Assembly (NCBI RefSeq): GCF_000473065.1
Contig: NZ_AXAZ01000009.1
Coordinates: 124,001-188,000 of the forward strand
Length of the DNA: 64,000 bases
From: Bradyrhizobium sp. WSM1743
GTDB taxonomy: Bacteria; Pseudomonadota; Alphaproteobacteria; Rhizobiales; Xanthobacteraceae
Direction of reading: 5' to 3'
Positions 36,411 through 44,715 of the stretch are shown piece by piece. Position 1 is the stretch's first letter. Every line of letters begins with the position of its first letter. The notes under the pieces are model-generated. The model saw only the letters and a program-made list of their open reading frames with translations. It had not been told where the DNA came from and did no database searches. A program made the position numbers and the translations under genes.

Positions 36411-37382
36411 CTACAACGTCATCTTCATCGGCTCCGGATAGTAGTGGAAGCCGTCGCCCGACTTGGCGACGTGGCCGTAGCCGGGCCAGGCGAAGTGATA
36501 GGACATCACCGGGGTCTTGTTGGCCGCAAGCATCGTCAGCAGTTTCACGCGCGACTCCGCCGCCTGCTTCGGGTCTGTGTCATAAGAGAATTCCATCCGC
36601 GGCCGCTCCAGCAGCAGTACCGAATGGTGCGAGAGATCGCCGAGGAACGCGAACGATTTGCCCGCCGAGGAGACCATGAAAATGGTGTGGCCGACGGTGT
36701 GGCCGGGCGCCGCGATCGCCTGCACGCCGGGCAGAAATTCCTGGCCGTCCTTGAAGAACACGATGCGGTCGCGCACCGGCAGCAGGTTCTTGCGGGCGTG
36801 AACGACGAAGTCCTTGGCCGCGCTGCCGAGCTTGCCCTCGTCGGTCCAGAAGTCGAAGTCGGTCTGCGAGATGTAGACTTGCGCATTCGGAAACAGCGGC
36901 TTGCCGCCCTCGTCGACGATGCCCCCGATGTGGTCGATATGGGCATGCGAGCAGACCACGGCGTCGATGTCCTCCGGCTTGATGCCGGCCTCGGTCATGC
37001 TCTTCTGCTGGCGGCCGGTGCTGGCGCCGAACATCTTCGATGAGCCCATGCCGGTGTCGAACAGGATCAGCTTGTCGCCGGTGTTCACGATCGGCGAGTT
37101 CTGTTCGAGCACGACATTGTCCGGCGACAGGAAATTGTCGGCGAGCATCTTCTTGACCTCTTCCTGGGGAACGCCAAGGAACGTCCCGGAGGGGTCGCCG
37201 AGCGGCAGCGGCCCGTCGGACACGACGGTCACCTCGGCATCGCCGAGAATGAAGCGGTGCCAGTACGGCGTCTGGGTGCCGAGTTTGGGAGCCCGCGCCA
37301 TCGCGCTGCTGCCGAGCATGGCGCTGGCGCCGAGACCGGCGCCGAGTGCGAGTAGGGACCGACGTGAGACATCGATTGTCAT
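36411..37382 (-). CDS. MBL-fold metallohydrolase with Tat-like signal
   Basis: A 323-residue metallo-beta-lactamase-fold enzyme: zinc motif CSHAHIDHIGG (HxHxDH), GHTVGHT, FLGDLSHHS and a late YHFAWPGYGH. The N-terminus has a twin-arginine segment (SRRSLLALGAGLG) followed by AMARA, so export by Tat is likely. Related proteins are lactonases or alkyl sulfatase-like hydrolases; substrate unknown. It faces the ASCH gene. Confidence 0.88.
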   Translation of the reverse strand: MTIDVSRRSLLALGAGLGASAMLGSSAMARAPKLGTQTPYWHRFILGDAEVTVVSDGPLPLGDPSGTFLGVPQEEVKKMLADNFLSPDNVVLEQNSPIVNTGDKLILFDTGMGSSKMFGASTGRQQKSMTEAGIKPEDIDAVVCSHAHIDHIGGIVDEGGKPLFPNAQVYISQTDFDFWTDEGKLGSAAKDFVVHARKNLLPVRDRIVFFKDGQEFLPGVQAIAAPGHTVGHTIFMVSSAGKSFAFLGDLSHHSVLLLERPRMEFSYDTDPKQAAESRVKLLTMLAANKTPVMSYHFAWPGYGHVAKSGDGFHYYPEPMKMTL

Positions 37383-37596: not shown

Positions 37597-38262
37597 CTAC
37601 GCAATTCTCAACGTGACATCATTGCCTTCCGTCTCGGCAAAGCCCGCCTGCAGGACCTCTTCGCGCTTGTGACGGAGATGCGCACGCAGGATGTGGGCGA
37701 GGCCGACGCCGTCGCGGCGCTGAAGCGCGTTGAGGATCGCCTCGTGCTCCTTCACGGCAAGCGCCCAGCGCTGCGGCGTCATCGGCGTGACGTAGCGCGC
37801 GCGCCGGATGCGCGCGGTCACCGAGGTGTAAAGCCCGGCGAGCACGGGATTTCCTGCTGCGGTCACGATCGCTTCGTGAATGGCGCGGTTGCCGCGATAG
37901 TACTGGATCAGGTCACCGTCGCGATAATGCTGCACCATGTTCGCATGTGCGGCGGCGATCGCGTCGATCTCGCCGTCCGTGATGCGCTCGCAGGCGAGCT
38001 CGCCGGCGAGGGCCTCCAAGCCCTGGCAGACCTCGAACAGGTCGCGCATGTCCTTGTCGGTCAGTTTTGCTGCGCGCGAGCCGCGATGCGGCAGCAGCTG
38101 TACGAGCCCTTCCGCGGCCAGCACCTTGAGCGCCTCGCGCAGCGGCGTGCGCGAGATCTCGAGCCGCTCGCACAGCTCGCGCTCGGGAATCCGCGCGCCC
38201 GGCGGGATTTCGCCGTCGAGCAGGATGGCGCGGATGCGGCCGACGACTTCTTCGTGAAGCAT
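37597..38262 (-). CDS. GntR family regulator, FCD type
   Basis: A 221-residue regulator: winged-helix domain (residues 1-75, with PPGARIPERELCERLEISRTPLREALKVL) and an FCD ligand-binding domain with conserved metal-site residues (ALAGELA, HEAIVTAAGNP). FadR/VanR-type GntR proteins bind DNA as dimers and sense small carboxylates. It is divergent from the crotonase-CoA-transferase-TctCBA run and has an inverted site upstream of its start, so it is the likely local repressor. Confidence 0.92.
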   Translation of the reverse strand: MLHEEVVGRIRAILLDGEIPPGARIPERELCERLEISRTPLREALKVLAAEGLVQLLPHRGSRAAKLTDKDMRDLFEVCQGLEALAGELACERITDGEIDAIAAAHANMVQHYRDGDLIQYYRGNRAIHEAIVTAAGNPVLAGLYTSVTARIRRARYVTPMTPQRWALAVKEHEAILNALQRRDGVGLAHILRAHLRHKREEVLQAGFAETEGNDVTLRIA

Positions 38263-38276
38263 GGGTCTGAGCTCGA

Positions 38277-38350
38277 TTTGAATGCAAAAACGAACTTATG
38301 CGCATATATTTCCAAGTTATAGCTTGAAAATCCCAGATTTTGCATTCAAA
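38277..38350. promoter_or_regulatory. Pair of TTTG-N4-CAAA operator-like sites for the GntR regulator
   Basis: TTTGAATGCAAAA (38277-38289) and its exact reverse complement TTTTGCATTCAAA (38338-38350) lie 61 bp apart between the GntR gene and the crotonase gene. Each site is itself a TTTG-N4-CAAA palindrome. The first is 15 bp before the GntR start and the second 28 bp before the crotonase start. The intervening sequence is AT-rich and must contain the promoters. Binding by the GntR protein is inferred. Confidence 0.65.
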
Positions 38351-38377
38351 ATTGTAAAAGACAGAAGGGTAAGAGGA

Positions 38378-39172
38378 ATGGACCTGCAAGTGGAGGCGGA
38401 AGACCTCGTCTTCGAGCGTGACGACGGCATCGGGCGGATCACCTTCAACCGCCCGCAGGCCCGCAATGCCTTCACCTTCGCCATGTACGAGCGGCTTGCC
38501 GCGATCTGCGAGGAGGCGAACCGCGATCATGCGATCAAGGTGCTGGTGCTGCGCGGGGCCGGCGACAAGGCCTTTGCCTCGGGCACCGACATCAACCAGT
38601 TCCGCGAGTTCAAGACGCCGCAGGACGCCATCGACTACGAGAACCGCATCGATCGCGTGCTGACCACGCTGGAACAGTGCCGGGTGCCGACCATCGCGGC
38701 GATCAACGGGTTCTGCACCGGAGGCGGGGCGGGCATTGCCGCGGCCTGCGACCTCCGCATCGGCACCAAGAGCGCCAAAATTGGATTTCCGATTGCTCGC
38801 ACGCTCGGCAATTGCCTGTCGATGTCCAATGTCGGCCGTCTCACCGCACTCATCGGCGCCGCGCGCGTCAAGGACCTCATCTTCACCGCGCGCCTTGTCG
38901 ACGCCGCGGAGGCCGCAAGCGTCGGACTGCTCGGCGAGGTCGTCGACGATCTTGTCGCCCTCGAGCGGCGCACTGAGGAGGTGGCCCGGCTCGTCGCGAG
39001 CCATGCGCCGCTGACGCTGAATGCGACCAAGCAGGCTGTCAGCCGCCTGCAGCGGCGGCTGACGCGGGACGAGGGCGAAGACCTCATTCTGATGTGCTAC
39101 ACGAGCCAGGACTTTCGCGAAGGGCTCGATGCTTTCCTCAACAAGCGCGCGCCGCAATGGCGCGGCCAATAG
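38378..39172 (+). CDS. Crotonase-superfamily enzyme, non-canonical active site
   Basis: A 264-residue crotonase-fold protein (enoyl-CoA hydratase/isomerase family). AAGAGGA precedes ATG 38378. The oxyanion-hole segments are ASGTDINQF and INGFCTGGGAGIAAACDLRIG. Positions corresponding to the two catalytic glutamates of classical hydratase (rat E144 and E164) read Gly (GGGAG) and Ile (GFPIART), so ordinary water addition is unlikely. It is probably another member of this superfamily. It is the first gene of the operon, 9 bp before the CoA-transferase gene. Confidence 0.88.
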   Translation: MDLQVEAEDLVFERDDGIGRITFNRPQARNAFTFAMYERLAAICEEANRDHAIKVLVLRGAGDKAFASGTDINQFREFKTPQDAIDYENRIDRVLTTLEQCRVPTIAAINGFCTGGGAGIAAACDLRIGTKSAKIGFPIARTLGNCLSMSNVGRLTALIGAARVKDLIFTARLVDAAEAASVGLLGEVVDDLVALERRTEEVARLVASHAPLTLNATKQAVSRLQRRLTRDEGEDLILMCYTSQDFREGLDAFLNKRAPQWRGQ

Positions 39173-39181
39173 GACGAGCCG

Positions 39182-40441
39182 ATGCAAAGCGACCGATCTC
39201 AATCCACTTCTCGCCGTTCGGGACCGCTGGCCGGCCTCAAGGTCATTGACCTCACCCACGTCATGGCCGGGCCGACCTGCACCTTGATGCTCGCCGACAT
39301 GGGCGCCGACGTCATCAAGATCGAGAAATGGCCGAACGGCGACGATACCCGCCATTCGGTGCCGCCGAAGATCGGCGATGAAGCGGCGTCCTTCCTGATG
39401 ATGAACCGCAACAAGCGCGGCATCGTGCTGGATCTGAAAACCGAGGGCGGCAAAGAGGTGCTGCGGCGCCTGATCGCGGATGCCGACGTGCTGGTCGAGA
39501 ACTTTGCGCCGGGCGCGATGGAGCGCCTCGGCTTCGGCTACGAGGCGCTCCATGCGGAATTCCCGGCGCTGATCTACTGTTCGCTGTCGGGCTTCGGCCG
39601 CACCGGTCCCTATAAGCACCGCAGGGGATTTGACCTTGTCGCGCAAGCGATGAGCGGCATCATGAGCTTTACCGGCGAGCGCCCGGACGGTCCGCCCGTC
39701 AAGTGCGGTCCGCCGCTGTCAGACATCACCGCGGGCCTGCTCGCGAGCATGGGCATCCTTGCGGCCTACACGCATCGTCTCAAGACCGGCGAAGGGCAAT
39801 GGGTCGAGACCTCGCTTTATGAAGCTGCGCTGGTGCAGACCTATTGGCAGTCGACCATCGCGCTGGCGGCCGGCACGGCGCCGCGCGCCATGGGCTCGGC
39901 GCATCCGCTCAACGCTCCGTATCAGGCGTTCGAAGCCTCGGACGGCTGGCTCGTGGTCGGCGGCGCCAACAAGAAGCATTGGCTGTTGATGCTGGAAGCG
40001 CTCGGCGCGAGCGAGCTTGCCGCCGATCCGCGCTTCGTCACCGGCGCCGATCGCATGGCCAATCTGAAGGAGCTCGAAGCCGTGCTGAGCGAGCGTTTCC
40101 GCACCAGGTCGCGGGCGCATTGGCTGGCGGCGCTGGAGGAGAAGGGCGTGCCGTGCGGCCCCGTGCACGACATGCTGGAAGCCCTCAGCGATCCGCAGAC
40201 ACTGGCGCGCGAGATGGTCGTCGAGGTCGAGCACTCCACGCTCGGTCCCGTCAAGACGATCGGGCTTCCCATCAAGTTTTCGGAGACCCCAGGCAAAGTG
40301 CGATCGGGCGCGCCGGTCTATGGTGAGCACACAAGCGAGGTGCTCGCCGAGCACGGGTTCGACCAGTCACGAATCGAGGCGCTCGAAAAAGAAGGCGCGA
40401 TCGTGCTGGCATCAGGAAGGCGCGAGGAACGCGTCGCCTGA
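39182..40441 (+). CDS. CaiB/BaiF family CoA-transferase
   Basis: A class III CoA-transferase of 419 residues that moves CoA between carboxylates. Visible motifs: DLTHVMAGPTCTLMLADMGADVIKIE near the start, ENFAPGAMERLGFGY, SLSGFGRTGPY, and the nucleophile Asp181 in GPPLSDITAG (as Asp169 in formyl-CoA transferase). It is probably co-transcribed with the crotonase and the Tct transporter, so it likely activates the imported carboxylate. Confidence 0.93.
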   Translation: MQSDRSQSTSRRSGPLAGLKVIDLTHVMAGPTCTLMLADMGADVIKIEKWPNGDDTRHSVPPKIGDEAASFLMMNRNKRGIVLDLKTEGGKEVLRRLIADADVLVENFAPGAMERLGFGYEALHAEFPALIYCSLSGFGRTGPYKHRRGFDLVAQAMSGIMSFTGERPDGPPVKCGPPLSDITAGLLASMGILAAYTHRLKTGEGQWVETSLYEAALVQTYWQSTIALAAGTAPRAMGSAHPLNAPYQAFEASDGWLVVGGANKKHWLLMLEALGASELAADPRFVTGADRMANLKELEAVLSERFRTRSRAHWLAALEEKGVPCGPVHDMLEALSDPQTLAREMVVEVEHSTLGPVKTIGLPIKFSETPGKVRSGAPVYGEHTSEVLAEHGFDQSRIEALEKEGAIVLASGRREERVA

Positions 40442-40491
40442 GCAGGCATCGATACGACAAGAACAAAGAACAAAATCAGCTGGAGGAAATC

Positions 40492-41484
40492 ATGGGTCGG
40501 ACGTCAACATTTCTGCTCTCCGCGGCCATAGCCGTGCTCGTCGGCACGATGCCGGCGCTTGCCGCCTGGCAACCGCAAAAGCCGATCGAGTTCGTCGCCA
40601 CCGCCGGCCCCGGCGGCGGCACCGACAACCTTGCCCGCGCGGTGCAGAACATCATCACCAAGCACAAGCTGACGGAGCAGCCGATCGTCGTCGTCAACAA
40701 GGGCGGCGGCAGCGGCGCCGAAGGCTATGTCTACGGCAAGGCGTCCGCGGGCGACCCTTACAAGGTGATCTTCGGCACCTCGAACGCCTGGCAACAGCCG
40801 CTCGTCTCCAAGGTCGCCTTCAACTACACCGATCTCACCCCGATCGCGGCGATGGCACAGGACGAGTTCCTGCTCTGGGTCAAGCAGGACGCCCCCTACA
40901 AGACGGCGGGCGACTACCTCAAGGCCGCCGCGTCCGGCGAATTCAAGATGGGCGGCGCGCAGTCGAAGGACACCGACGAGGTGCTGACGCGGATGATCGA
41001 GAAGGCCGGCAAGGTCAAGCTCACCTACATCCCCTTCAAGAGCGGCGCCGAGACCGCCGTGCAGCTCGCCGGCGGCCATCTCGATTCTCACGTCAACAAT
41101 CCCAGCGAAAGCCTCGGGCAATGGCGCGGCGGCACGCAGCGACCACTCTGCGTGTTCAGCCCGAAGCGCTTGCCGCAGGGCCCGAAGGTCACCGCGACCG
41201 AAGGCTGGAGCGACGTTCCGACCTGCGTCGAGCAGGGCCTCGACATCAAGCAATATGAGCAGCCGCGCACCGTGTGGCTGCCCGGCAAGGTCACGCCGGA
41301 GCAGGCCGCGTTCTATGTCGACCTCATGAGGAAAGTGCAGGCAACGCCGGAGTGGAAGGACTACATCGAGAAGACCTCCCAGGTCGACACGTTCCTGACG
41401 GGTGCCGAGTTCGACAAGTTCATCAAGGAGGACCTCGAGCACGTCAAGCAGGTCGCGGGCGAGCAGGGCTGGCTCGTCAAGTGA
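40492..41484 (+). CDS. TTT-family substrate-binding protein (TctC/Bug)
   Basis: A 330-residue periplasmic solute receptor of a tripartite tricarboxylate-type transporter. Signal peptide TFLLSAAIAVLVGTMPALA precedes WQPQKPIEFVATAGPGGGTDNLARAV, the Bug-family start. It captures a carboxylate and hands it to TctBA encoded 0.2-2.2 kb downstream. The ligand is unknown. Confidence 0.95.
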   Translation: MGRTSTFLLSAAIAVLVGTMPALAAWQPQKPIEFVATAGPGGGTDNLARAVQNIITKHKLTEQPIVVVNKGGGSGAEGYVYGKASAGDPYKVIFGTSNAWQQPLVSKVAFNYTDLTPIAAMAQDEFLLWVKQDAPYKTAGDYLKAAASGEFKMGGAQSKDTDEVLTRMIEKAGKVKLTYIPFKSGAETAVQLAGGHLDSHVNNPSESLGQWRGGTQRPLCVFSPKRLPQGPKVTATEGWSDVPTCVEQGLDIKQYEQPRTVWLPGKVTPEQAAFYVDLMRKVQATPEWKDYIEKTSQVDTFLTGAEFDKFIKEDLEHVKQVAGEQGWLVK

Positions 41485-41510
41485 GGCGGGGCAGGCAGGT
41501 CGCCAGCGGC

Positions 41511-41621
41511 CATCCTTCGAGACGCCCGCCTGCGGCGGGCCCTCAGGATGAGGTCGCGAATTGCGGCGAGATGTCAGCCCCTCATGGTGGGAGCCCGCCA
41601 AAGCGGGCGTCTCGAACCATG
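41511..41621. repeat. Palindromic repeat between tctC-like and tctB-like genes
   Basis: CATCCTTCGAGACGCCCGC (41511-41529) pairs with GCGGGCGTCTCGAACCATG (41603-41621), with two mismatches. The interior has GCCCGCCTGCGGCGGGC and CTCAGGATGAGG, the latter shared with the repeat at 1835-1939. Confidence 0.7.
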
Positions 41622-41690
41622 CAGGTCTGGCTCGTTCGGCAGACCCCCCGCGGTCACGCGGGATCGCTCAGCCTTCAAAGGGACCACGCC

Positions 41691-42173
41691 ATGATCTCCC
41701 GTCGCGCGCTTGAACTTGCGACCGCCGTCCTCACCGGCAGCTTCGGTGTCGCCGTAATCGTCTCCAGCCTCGACAACGGCATCGGCTGGTCGAGCGCAGG
41801 CGTCGACGCCGGCACGTTCCCGTTCCTGACCGGCATCATCATCGTGCTCGGGAGCCTCTACAATCTGGTGCGCGGCGTGCTGCCGGCTGCCACACTGGCA
41901 AACGTCCCCATCGCCATCACGTCAATCGAGCTGCGCCGGCTCGCCGGCCTGTTCGTGCCGGCTGCGATCTTCGTCGCCGCGATCCCGCTCGCCGGGATAT
42001 ACGTCGCCTCGGCGCTGTATGTCTTCGCGGTGCTGGCGATCCCCCGGCACCAATCCGTGCCGCGCGCGCTCGCCATGGCAGCAGCAACGGCGCTCGCGCT
42101 CTATGTCGTGTTCGAGCGCATGTTCCAGGTGAGCCTGCCGCACGGCGCGCTCGCCGCCGCCTTCGGGTTCTGA
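41691..42173 (+). CDS. TTT-family small membrane subunit (TctB)
   Basis: A 160-residue protein with four hydrophobic segments, for example AVLTGSFGVAVIVSSL, FPFLTGIIIVLGSLYNLV, LFVPAAIFVAAIPLAGIYVASALYVFAVLAI and ALAMAAATALALYVVFERMF, as in TctB. AAGGGA is upstream of ATG 41691. It precedes the tctA-like gene by 11 bp. Confidence 0.9.
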   Translation: MISRRALELATAVLTGSFGVAVIVSSLDNGIGWSSAGVDAGTFPFLTGIIIVLGSLYNLVRGVLPAATLANVPIAITSIELRRLAGLFVPAAIFVAAIPLAGIYVASALYVFAVLAIPRHQSVPRALAMAAATALALYVVFERMFQVSLPHGALAAAFGF

Positions 42174-42184
42174 CGGAGAGGCCG

Positions 42185-43714
42185 ATGGACAATCTCGCAG
42201 AGCTCCTGCACGGCTTCACCATCGCAGTCACCGTGCCGCATCTGGCCCTGATGGCGGTCGGCGTGCTGCTCGGCATTCTCGTCGGCGTGCTGCCGGGGCT
42301 GGGCGCGCCGAACGGCGTGTCGCTGCTCCTGCCGCTGACCTTCGGCATGCAGCCGGTGTCGGCGATCATTCTGCTCTCCAGCATGTATTGGGGCGCGCTG
42401 TTCGGGGGATCGGTGACCTCGATCCTGTTCAACATTCCCGGTGAGCCGTCGTCGGTCGCGACCACGTTCGACGGCTATCCGATGGCACGCGACGGCCGGC
42501 CGACCACGGCGCTCGCGACCGCCTTCGGCTCGGCCGCGTTCGGTGCGCTGATCGGCGTCATCCTGATTACCTTCCTCGCATCCTGGGTGGCGCAGGTTGC
42601 GCTCGCGTTCGGGCCGGCCGAGTATTTTGCGGTTTATTTCCTCGCCTTTGCCAGCTTCGTCGGCATGGGCGGTGCGGCGCCGATCAAGACCGTCGTGGCG
42701 CTGGCGATCGGCTTTGCGATCGCCGCCATCGGCATCGACACCGTCTCCGGCAGCGTGCGCCTCACCATGGGCGTGGATGAGCTGGTCAAGGGCGTGAGCT
42801 TCGTCGTCGCGGTGATGGGCCTGTTCGGCATCGGCGAGCTCTTGGTCGCTGTCGAGGAGGAGTTTCACGCCCGCGCGGTCTCCTCGAAGATCGACTGGCG
42901 CGAGGTGTTTCGCGCCGTCGGCCGCCTGCCGCGGCACGGCGTTGCCCTGCTGCGCAGCGCCGCGATCGGCTGCTGGATGGGGATCACGCCGGGCGGCCCG
43001 ACCGCGGCTTCCTTCATGAGCTACGGCATCGCCCGCCGCTTCTCGCGCCGCGGCCGGCATTTCGGCACCGGGGAGGTCGAAGGCATCATCTCGCCGGAGA
43101 CGGCCGATCATGCCGCCGGGACCAGCGCGCTGCTGCCGATGCTCTCGCTCGGCATTCCCGGCTCGGCGACCGCGGCGGTGATGATGGGCGGGCTGATGAT
43201 CTGGGGCCTCAATCCCGGGCCGATGCTGTTCGTCGACAGCAAGGATTTCGTCTGGGGCCTGATCGCCTCGATGTATGTCGGCAACATCGTCGCCGTCGCG
43301 CTGGTGCTGCTGACCGTCCCGGTCTTCGCCGCCTTGATGCGGATTCCCTTCGTGGTGATCGCGCCGCTGATCGTGATCATCTGCGTCGTCGGCGCCTATT
43401 CGGTGTCGAACTCCTATCTCGACGTGGTCATGATGCTCGGCTTCGGCGTCGTCGGCTATCTCTTCAAGAAGCTGTTCTATCCGCTGGCGCCGCTCGTGCT
43501 CGCGATCGTGATCGGCGACAAGGCCGAGGATGCGTTCCGGCAGTCGATGCTGATCTCCAAGGGATCACTCGGCATCTTCTTCGCGAACAAGCTGGTGACG
43601 TGCCTGATCGTGGGCGGCATCGCGCTGCTGCTGCTGCCGCTCGTGTTGCAGCTTGCGCGTCTCTGGCGCAAGCCCGCGATCGACACGCCAGCCCAGGAAA
43701 AGGTGATCATATGA
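42185..43714 (+). CDS. TTT-family large membrane subunit (TctA)
   Basis: A 509-residue, about 12-segment membrane permease of the TctA family: GVLLGILVGVLPGLGAPNGVSLLLP, GALFGGSVTSILFNIPGEP and GGPTAASFMSYGI are the signature glycine-rich loops. Together with TctC and TctB it forms the uptake system. It overlaps the start of the pdxA-like gene (ATGA). Confidence 0.95.
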   Translation: MDNLAELLHGFTIAVTVPHLALMAVGVLLGILVGVLPGLGAPNGVSLLLPLTFGMQPVSAIILLSSMYWGALFGGSVTSILFNIPGEPSSVATTFDGYPMARDGRPTTALATAFGSAAFGALIGVILITFLASWVAQVALAFGPAEYFAVYFLAFASFVGMGGAAPIKTVVALAIGFAIAAIGIDTVSGSVRLTMGVDELVKGVSFVVAVMGLFGIGELLVAVEEEFHARAVSSKIDWREVFRAVGRLPRHGVALLRSAAIGCWMGITPGGPTAASFMSYGIARRFSRRGRHFGTGEVEGIISPETADHAAGTSALLPMLSLGIPGSATAAVMMGGLMIWGLNPGPMLFVDSKDFVWGLIASMYVGNIVAVALVLLTVPVFAALMRIPFVVIAPLIVIICVVGAYSVSNSYLDVVMMLGFGVVGYLFKKLFYPLAPLVLAIVIGDKAEDAFRQSMLISKGSLGIFFANKLVTCLIVGGIALLLLPLVLQLARLWRKPAIDTPAQEKVII

Positions 43715-44715
43715 CCGCAAAGCCGCTCGTTGCATTGGCAATGGGAGATCCCGCCGGCATCAGCCCGGAGCTGACGGCGAAGCTCGTGGCGCAGGACGAC
43801 ATCCGCGCCCGCTGCCGGCTCGTCGTCATCGGCGATCGCCGCATCTTCGACGAAGGCGCGCGCATTGCTGGCCTCAAGCCGAAGCTGAAGATGGTGGAGC
43901 AGGGTGCCGACCTCCGCGCGGCGCAGGAAGATGCACTGTTCGTCGATCTCCGCCACCTCGACCCCAGCGAGGTCGAGCCGAAGACCGCGACCGTTGCCGG
44001 CGGCAAATTCGCCCTGGCCAATTACAGGCACGCGCTCGAACTCGGCCGCGACGGCCATGTCGACGCGGTCTGTTTCACCCCCTTCAACAAGCAGGCGATG
44101 CGCCTTGCCCGTGCCGAGTACGACGACGAGATCGCGTTCTCGGCCGAGGTCGTCGGTCTCAACACGCCGGCAAGCGAATTCAACGTGCTGGACCGGCTCT
44201 GGAACGCACGGGTCACTTCGCACATCCCGCTCAAGGACGTCGCTGCAAAGCTGTCGAGCGAACGTATCCATCGCGCGCTCTGGCTGACCGATTCCTGCAT
44301 GCGCAATGCCGGCTTTGCGCGACCGCGCATCGCGGTCGCAGGCCTCAATCCCCATGCCGGCGACGGCGGCAATTTCGGCCGCGAGGAGATCGACGTGATT
44401 GCGCCTGTGGTCGCGGACGGTCAGCGCGAGGGTATTGCCGCGGAGGGACCGTTCCCGGCCGACACCGTGTTCCTGCGCGCCAAGGCCGGCGCCTTCGATG
44501 CCGTGCTGACGATGTATCACGACCAGGGCCAGATCGCGATGAAGCTGATGGGTTTCGATCGCGGCGTCACCTTGCTCGGCGGCTTCCCTTTCCCGATCTG
44601 CACGCCCGCGCACGGCACTGCCTACGACATCGCAGGGCAGGGCATCGCATCGATTGGCGCTAGCCGCGCCGCATTGCTGCTCGCAGCGGAGATGGCGGCG
44701 CAGCGACTCGTCTGA
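43711..44715 (+). CDS. PdxA-family NAD-dependent dehydrogenase (PdxA2-like)
   Basis: A 334-residue member of the PdxA family (4-hydroxythreonine-4-phosphate dehydrogenase fold). MGDPAGISPELTAKL at the N-terminus and three metal-site histidines (VTSHIPLKDV, GLNPHAGDGG, MYHDQGQIAMK) are present. Context in a catabolic operon, overlapping tctA, suggests a PdxA2-like role in oxidising a phosphorylated hydroxyacid (as in erythronate or threonate catabolism) rather than vitamin B6 synthesis. No kinase is adjacent, so this is inference. Confidence 0.85.
   Translation: MTAKPLVALAMGDPAGISPELTAKLVAQDDIRARCRLVVIGDRRIFDEGARIAGLKPKLKMVEQGADLRAAQEDALFVDLRHLDPSEVEPKTATVAGGKFALANYRHALELGRDGHVDAVCFTPFNKQAMRLARAEYDDEIAFSAEVVGLNTPASEFNVLDRLWNARVTSHIPLKDVAAKLSSERIHRALWLTDSCMRNAGFARPRIAVAGLNPHAGDGGNFGREEIDVIAPVVADGQREGIAAEGPFPADTVFLRAKAGAFDAVLTMYHDQGQIAMKLMGFDRGVTLLGGFPFPICTPAHGTAYDIAGQGIASIGASRAALLLAAEMAAQRLV

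Follow-up and report, generated by a model that had tools for sequence, protein, structure and literature searches.

The closest described systems for the locus studied here are the PdxA2/PF07005-PF17042 kinase pathways for four-carbon sugar acids, the L-ascorbate pathway and tartrate dehydrogenase/decarboxylase. The locus is a seven-gene cassette in a 64,000-nucleotide stretch, hereafter the window, of the 8.34-Mb genome of Bradyrhizobium sp. WSM1743 (contig NZ_AXAZ01000009.1, positions 124,001 to 188,000; part of our contig C120), in which the gene of a GntR-FCD regulator is divergent from genes encoding a crotonase-fold enzyme, a CaiB/BaiF CoA-transferase, TctC, TctB, TctA and a PdxA-family dehydrogenase (37597-44715). 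The cassette shares with the kinase pathways the PdxA fold, the metal ligands and the NAD chemistry, likely for oxidation plus decarboxylation of a beta-hydroxy acid, but it has no kinase, the positions that we take to be phosphate contacts are replaced, and the identity is 35-36%. The L-ascorbate pathway of Stack et al. 2020 reportedly includes a PdxA-family decarboxylase, for 2-carboxy-L-lyxonate, which acts without phosphate and which, judged from the gene context of relatives, would fall into the same PdxA clade as the window enzyme, with D-E in place of G-H in the GHTE motif; however, these relatives are 46-50% identical to the window PdxA and have different neighbours. The work of Stack et al. 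2020 is cited in PMC11066805. Tartrate dehydrogenase/decarboxylase (TIGR02089) resembles the step that we propose for PdxA, an NAD-linked beta-decarboxylation of an unphosphorylated hydroxy diacid, and its genes adjoin crotonase genes in two other loci (L095 and L314), but it belongs to another protein family and is not encoded in the cassette. Of the remaining enzymes, the crotonase is full length on the enoyl-CoA hydratase family NF004796, and a fold comparison with its structure model gave ordinary solved crotonases (Z 24-26) and no hint of its function, but unlike classical enoyl-CoA hydratases it lacks the catalytic glutamates and has invariant Arg141-Thr142 and Asn145-Cys146. The CoA-transferase is of class III, as are formyl-CoA:oxalate, succinyl-CoA:mesaconate and succinate:glutarate CoA-transferases (289-335 bits), but it lies far under every equivalog cut-off (NCBIfam best 335 bits, cut-off 750).

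The protein families are known already, and the PdxA branch has probably at least one characterised member. In the literature searched (CC0, CC BY and CC BY-SA papers in PubMed Central) we found no description of this gene set as a pathway, nor of the kinase-free PdxA clade as a group or of the glutamate-free crotonase subfamily, which agrees with an earlier note on the window, made from its sequence alone, that could name no pathway with this set. On balance we lean towards a catabolic cassette with its own regulator that serves one small beta-hydroxy carboxylate and comprises uptake, a kinase-free decarboxylating branch and a CoA branch. The gene set, its conservation, an operator pair, residue changes and neighbour associations are observed, and from these we infer repression, the reaction types and the substrate.

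Conservation of the cassette

Profile matches (Pfam/NCBIfam) recovered all seven families in the order given by the earlier note (Table 1), including the PdxA start that it had seen overlapping tctA, where the pdxA ATG and the tctA stop overlap by 4 bp. The gene-order comparison across genomes that it had called for was run on 46 loci, which were fetched via PdxA or crotonase matches and hence form a biased draw; the neighbours are conserved together, since 42 of the 46 hold the seven genes colinear with a divergent GntR gene. The exceptions are L145 and L154, which lack PdxA, L147, which has the crotonase alone, and L148, from a metagenome-assembled genome named only as Alphaproteobacteria, which begins at the crotonase and continues through PdxA in window order. 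In 15 same-genus loci, identities to the window are 71-96% for GntR, 75-96% for the crotonase, 76-98% for the CoA-transferase, 74-98% for TctC, 55-95% for TctB, 82-99% for TctA and 71-95% for PdxA, and the median intergenic gaps from crotonase through PdxA in the 42 complete loci are 9, 52, 57, 11 and -4 bp. Since the flanking genes of these 42 loci vary (HAD, ASCH, MBL, GT, Ldt, cupin), it is the cassette, rather than the region, that is conserved, and the association of its genes is not due to chance. PdxA at 71% identity or more was present in 34 of 60 same-genus genomes, the own genome included, when 100 relatives were scanned. The cassette or either half was found in proteobacterial genomes of the alpha, beta and gamma type, S. 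meliloti, Shinella and many Bradyrhizobium among them. Of at least 584 relatives, a scan of named genomes covered the best 80; since 62 of these are titled Bradyrhizobium, it says little on breadth.

Table 1. Positions of the cassette genes and promoter elements in the window.
Feature	Position	Strand	Evidence
GntR/FadR-FCD regulator	37597..38262	-	PF00392 61 bits, PF07729 102 bits
Operator 1 (candidate), palindrome TTTGAATGCAAA	38277..38288	.	exact match
Weak sigma-70-like promoter, second hexamer inside operator 2	38324..38352	+	9/12 matches; shuffles yield 0.8 such sites in region
Operator 2 (candidate), palindrome TTTGCATTCAAA, 62 bp from operator 1	38339..38350	.	match to the TTTGMATKCAAA pattern
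Crotonase-fold enzyme without catalytic glutamates, signature GFPIARTLGNCLS	38378..39172	+	NF004796 407.3 bits, cut-off 272
CaiB/BaiF (class III) CoA-transferase	39182..40441	+	PF02515 447 bits, profile 1-366 of 366
TctC periplasmic carboxylate receptor	40492..41484	+	PF03401
TctB small membrane subunit	41691..42173	+	PF07331
TctA large membrane subunit	42185..43714	+	PF01970 464 bits
PdxA-family dehydrogenase, D-E at G-H positions of GHTE	43711..44715	+	PF04166 291 bits

All three components of a tripartite tricarboxylate transporter are thus present. The longest open reading frame of the crotonase starts at 38282, but conservation begins only at 38378. The genes are likely read as one transcript despite the 206-bp gap between TctC and TctB in WSM1743; a promoter and terminator scan found no convincing terminator at the operon end. 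On the other side of the GntR gene, which it adjoins in part of the genus, lies a gene for a metallo-beta-lactamase-fold protein with an N-terminal signal-like stretch (36411-37382, minus strand; nearest NCBIfam an AidB-type lactonase, 145 bits, cut-off 360), which we kept out of the cassette.

The GntR regulator and its candidate operators

The 115-bp divergent promoter between the GntR and crotonase genes carries both palindromes of Table 1. The TTTGMATKCAAA pattern has a chance expectation of 0.01 in the window (by shuffling) and occurs at three sites in the 8.34 Mb of the genome, two of them in this promoter, as against one for the reversed control pattern. The third site is single (C82:17382-17393, L327), lies upstream of a cyclopropane-fatty-acid-synthase-type gene identified by eye, and was treated as chance. 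A TTTG-N4-CAAA palindrome is present at least once in all 44 GntR-crotonase intergenic regions and twice in 33 of them, and GntR control, as the earlier note had it, is supported by the divergent gene together with these conserved palindromic candidate operators in the shared promoter. In our model GntR, putatively a repressor, would sit on the two palindromes 62 bp apart and come off in response to the substrate or to an early product.

Of 60 relatives, 12 carry the spaced pair, each of them once, and all 12 are of the same genus (reversed control 0). In 11 of these the pair lies within 5-7 kb of a cassette-type PdxA, both being on one contig, whereas in the draft genome G029 it is on a different contig. 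Scanning 174 fetched loci of at least 8 kb with a slightly looser pattern (60-64 bp spacing) gave the pair in 37, again with 0 for the reversed control. These are 33 window-type cassettes and four loci of other composition: L202 has GntR, TctCBA and PdxA without CoA-transferase or crotonase, and L298, L299 and L300 are beta-type operons with crotonase and CoA-transferase and without PdxA, two of them also with an aminotransferase. In addition, L078 (crotonase, CoA-transferase and a TRAP transporter, without PdxA) has the second operator site intact and the first off by one base. Since TctCBA-PdxA alone and crotonase-CoA-transferase alone share the operator pair, both branches probably act on one imported acid. 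At the same time, the earlier note's proposal of import, CoA activation and further conversion of one compound stands as far as a conserved uptake and catabolism cassette is concerned, but probably not as a single CoA-dependent chain, since L202 holds only the TctCBA-PdxA part and L078, L298, L299 and L300 hold crotonase and CoA-transferase without PdxA.

In the GntR tree, the regulators of the window, L202, L078, L080 and L093 fall into one clade (10 rows, support 99/99), for which a shared inducer is likely. For the beta-type operator-bearing regulators a shared inducer is suggested less strongly, since these GntRs form a separate clade of their own.

A PdxA clade without the phosphate-contact residues

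Where E. coli PdxA has G135-H136-T137, N283 and R292, which we take to be phosphate contacts in that enzyme, the window PdxA carries D-E-I, T and I, respectively, but it retains the metal ligands H166, H211 and H266 as well as D247 and K274. The same holds across the clade: all 21 members aligned (43-72% identical to the window PdxA, itself excluded) replace G135-H136 by D-E, N283 by T and R292 by I, V, L or F, and keep the five other residues. In contrast, the canonical PdxA of this genome (C125) and a PdxA paralogue on contig C76 keep the E. coli GHTE/N/R residues. The window protein scores 263.0 bits on TIGR00557 (4-hydroxythreonine-4-phosphate dehydrogenase), under the cut-off of 290.35. 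No PF07005/PF17042 kinase gene was found in the cassette or its flanks, one found in the genome adjoining another PdxA paralogue on contig C76 (L061), and no kinase stands beside any D-E PdxA in the loci read, not every flank of which was scanned with the kinase model. The earlier note was thus right that no kinase adjoins the window PdxA, but its absence is not a gap: since the clade is without phosphate-contact residues and keeps the metal ligands, it would be a property of the D-E clade, whose window subfamily should act on an unphosphorylated acid. A missing DUF1537-type kinase located elsewhere was therefore rejected, the residues indicating that none is needed. Public plasmid records label PdxA genes of this clade 4-hydroxythreonine-4-phosphate dehydrogenase, which, because of the changed residues, is probably wrong for the D-E clade. 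A terephthalate-type dihydrodiol dehydrogenase was marked down, 4aty being only the tenth PDB relative and no oxygenase being present in the cassette; the motif was not compared.

One could also suppose that PdxA is a passenger that joined by chance in Bradyrhizobium and that the operon consists of the CoA branch only. PdxA is the last gene of the operon and is absent from L154 and L145, but its retention in 42 of 46 loci, and the presence of a CoA-transferase of the same family beside a D-E PdxA in L207, L256 and L261, make this highly improbable.

The settings of the clade differ between genera. In S. meliloti GntR-PdxA-TctCBA is accompanied by a TIM-barrel isomerase, in Chelatococcus by an amidohydrolase and in Roseomonas by IlvD and a DRL-type oxidoreductase, while in Shinella (L091) PdxA-TctCBA is followed by genes for a TIM-barrel isomerase and for a member of the dihydroxyacetone-kinase family (NF011049 735 bits, cut-off 492 for the latter); other D-E PdxA genes lie with TRAP, amidohydrolase or tartronate-semialdehyde-reductase-like genes, and a member at 43% identity has DctA and MmgE/PrpD genes nearby. 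The PdxA relatives of L058, L060 and L217 (43-46%) lie in clusters that contain MmgE/PrpD, DctA or several genes of the tartrate/isocitrate-dehydrogenase family and that may encode a tricarboxylate pathway.

The beta-type relatives at 46-50% (L209, L211, L214), all D-E, lie with genes for an SMP-30 lactonase (PF08450), a weak YncE-like propeller, MR/MLE and DHDPS-type proteins. These neighbourhoods resemble the L-ascorbate pathway, and from this context some members of the clade are probably its decarboxylase. For the window itself, the acid could then be the branched ascorbate product 2-carboxy-L-pentonate, with PdxA as a 2-carboxy-L-lyxonate-type decarboxylase and with CoA-transferase and crotonase serving another compound. 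However, no such neighbours stand beside the window PdxA: the cassette has no lactonase or sugar-acid dehydratase, and no lactonase, rearranging propeller protein, amidohydrolase or lyxonate enzyme was found between positions 34.5 and 48 kb in the window, so we consider this quite unlikely.

The crotonase, the CoA-transferase and their neighbours

The lack of both catalytic glutamates of enoyl-CoA hydratases, which the earlier note had reported for the crotonase, was confirmed by alignment: Glu is present at the first catalytic site in none of 46 family rows, while the 45 rows listed show G(F/V)P(I/V)(A/V)RT(L/V)GNC at the second (both counts include repeats of the same gene). The crotonase may be a lyase, a decarboxylase or another enzyme, and, together with the PdxA residues, the missing glutamates bear out the earlier suspicion that the chemistry is not textbook. 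The CaiB-type protein is predicted to transfer CoA between carboxylates; some class III family members are racemases or isomerases. Carnitine-type CaiB/CaiD chemistry was rejected (152 bits, cut-off 413). The PdxA-linked CoA-transferases form one clade (12 rows, support 97/96), and in L207, L256 and L261 the CoA-transferase and D-E PdxA occur with another crotonase type and TRAP transporters.

A second crotonase copy, 71% identical, is present in this genome (L077, G000:C112:1-20000). Its operon also encodes two BhcA-like aminotransferases, TctCBA, GntR and a GlcD/YdiJ-like FAD/Fe-S oxidase of 991 aa, a layout that recurs across Bradyrhizobium with an HbpS-like gene adjoining the oxidase. Among 60 non-window loci centred on a window-type crotonase or CoA-transferase, 42 have both genes, 14 the crotonase only and 4 the CoA-transferase only. 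Within nine genes, the 42 loci with both include 11 with an aminotransferase of the BhcA/serine-glyoxylate type (10 detected by script, L094 taken from its record, the gene caller having missed at least one), eight with a GlcD/YdiJ-like FAD oxidase, five with PdxA, five with a tartronate-semialdehyde-reductase-like gene, three with a TPP enzyme and two with glc genes. The five PdxA cases are L148 and L155, which are the window cassette in other organisms, and the different arrangements of L207, L256 and L261. None of 33 loci used for comparison, either centred on PdxA or taken from elsewhere in the own genome, had an aminotransferase, oxidase or CoA-transferase of these types at the same thresholds. 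Moreover, in two crotonase-only loci the crotonase follows a tartrate dehydrogenase gene, in L095 (Caballeronia) after glcFED, glcC and the dehydrogenase (TIGR02089 557 bits, cut-off 470) and in L314 after another one. Part of these neighbour names come from NCBIfam and Pfam profiles, the others from similarity to profile-named genes or from reading of the translation. Taken together, the neighbours elsewhere appear to narrow the chemistry towards the C2 products glycolate and glyoxylate.

Such neighbours allow other acids. The CoA branch could serve a malonate-like diacid such as tartronate, with the crotonase decarboxylating tartronyl-CoA to glycolyl-CoA, the CoA being passed on and glycolate being oxidised and transaminated. 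This would account for the FAD oxidase, the aminotransferase and a glutamate-free crotonase, which we liken to methylmalonyl-CoA decarboxylase, and a close TctC paralogue adjoins two oxalate/formate antiporters (TIGR04259, 632 and 636 bits). However, tartronate offers no beta-hydroxyl for PdxA, yet L202 has TctCBA-PdxA alone under the same operator pair; an acid common to both branches can be neither tartronate nor oxalate, because the PdxA chemistry needs a beta-hydroxyl, and we regard tartronate as improbable. Alternatively, PdxA would convert malate (D-malate) to pyruvate and CO2 while malyl-CoA is cleaved to acetyl-CoA and glyoxylate, which would account for the aminotransferase and for the tartrate-dehydrogenase-family neighbours, a family that includes D-malate enzymes. 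Since the GlcD-like oxidase and the glycolate genes would not be needed, malate seems very unlikely.

Transport and the imported acid

The genome has 27 further TctC-like matches, of which two resemble the window TctC closely, at 48% (C112) and 46% (C109), the next being at 29%. The nearest, on C112, lies in the operon of the second crotonase with its aminotransferases and oxidase. The C109 locus (L321, G000:C109:9958-16363) consists of TctCBA followed by the two oxalate/formate antiporters, and formate-dehydrogenase-like genes (by eye) lie about 12-20 kb further on. For each of three TRAP receptors from sister operons, a PDB search ranked 4nq8 first and then 4p9k, 4pdh and further entries; these three we take to be among the pantoate/erythronate TRAP-receptor structures. 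In PMC11668362, pantoate or erythronate, mostly co-purified, is reported in most TRAP-receptor structures of that paper's homologue set.

In the cassette as we read it, TctC-TctB-TctA would import the hydroxy acid. In one branch, the PdxA-like metal- and NAD-dependent dehydrogenase would oxidise the beta-hydroxyl of the unphosphorylated acid and release its carboxylate, with no kinase involved; in the other, the CoA-transferase would put CoA on the acid and the glutamate-free crotonase would cleave or decarboxylate the thioester to C2 units (glycolate/glyoxylate). The C2-type neighbours fit the cleavage of a C4 2,3-dihydroxy acid, which is our best guess for the imported compound. Tartrate is our tentative choice among these: PdxA would yield glycerate or hydroxypyruvate plus CO2 and the crotonase would split tartryl-CoA into glyoxylate and glycolyl-CoA, which would account for most observations, namely the tartrate dehydrogenase beside the crotonase, the glycolate oxidase and the aminotransferase.

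A tetronate is the more doubtful candidate. Here the acid would be a C4 aldonate, L-threonate or erythronate, and PdxA would act like PdxA2 without kinase, converting tetronate and NAD to dihydroxyacetone and CO2, while the CoA branch would give glycolyl-CoA and glycolaldehyde. Tetronates would account for the kinase-family gene and TIM-barrel isomerase behind the PdxA-TctCBA genes of Shinella and, with the ligands that we assume for these entries, for the TRAP relatives of all three sister operons, but L095 and L314, where a tartrate dehydrogenase adjoins the crotonase, are left unexplained, and the best-known substrates of TctC/TctA systems and of class III CoA-transferases are dicarboxylates.

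Several points weigh against a cassette for one hydroxy acid. PdxA is missing from the otherwise present cassettes of L145 and L154, and the beta-type operator-bearing GntRs are apart from that of the window, so that identical inducers can only be supposed. None of the above neighbours occurs in 20 of the 42 crotonase and CoA-transferase loci, and the aminotransferases (408-458 bits on BhcA, cut-off 650) and the GlcD-like oxidase (513 bits on YdiJ, cut-off 1350) score under the cut-offs. As regards transport, the C109 paralogue beside the antiporters would fit a smaller diacid better, the solved proteins nearest to TctC in a PDB search (up to 99 bits) gave no ligand clue, and the TctC structure model is poor (pLDDT 56). 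The crotonase model has a pLDDT of 74.8 with the key motif lowest (residues 140-144 under 50), and, since the crotonase type of L207, L256 and L261 keeps the first glutamate, the two types may not share a reaction.

Assigning the D-E PdxA, TctC and the glutamate-free crotonase would assign a whole group of catabolic operons of plant- and soil-associated bacteria, and the crotonase offers a chance to find a possible new crotonase reaction. A bolder proposal, which we hold to be unlikely, is that the crotonase is a natural retro-aldol lyase splitting tartryl-CoA (or tetronyl-CoA) at C2-C3 into glycolyl-CoA and glyoxylate (or glycolaldehyde), beside a kinase-free PdxA that decarboxylates the same acid; if true, glycolyl-CoA would be formed in nature by a route that does not belong to the known malyl-CoA-lyase family. 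Tartryl-CoA is not mentioned among the matches listed for literature on tartryl-CoA, tartronyl-CoA and glycolyl-CoA, the top ones of which concern synthetic pathways.

Two further arrangements of crotonase genes were observed. In three genomes of one family (L250, L258, L260) a one-glutamate crotonase, a CoA-transferase and a TPP enzyme (NF006052, 797-841 bits, cut-off 539) are consecutive. The small (about 2 Mb) beta-type genomes G565 and G730, of one genus, have two glutamate-free crotonase copies each (L303, L304, L306, L307), one of which is accompanied by a TctC-type receptor and a CoA-transferase.

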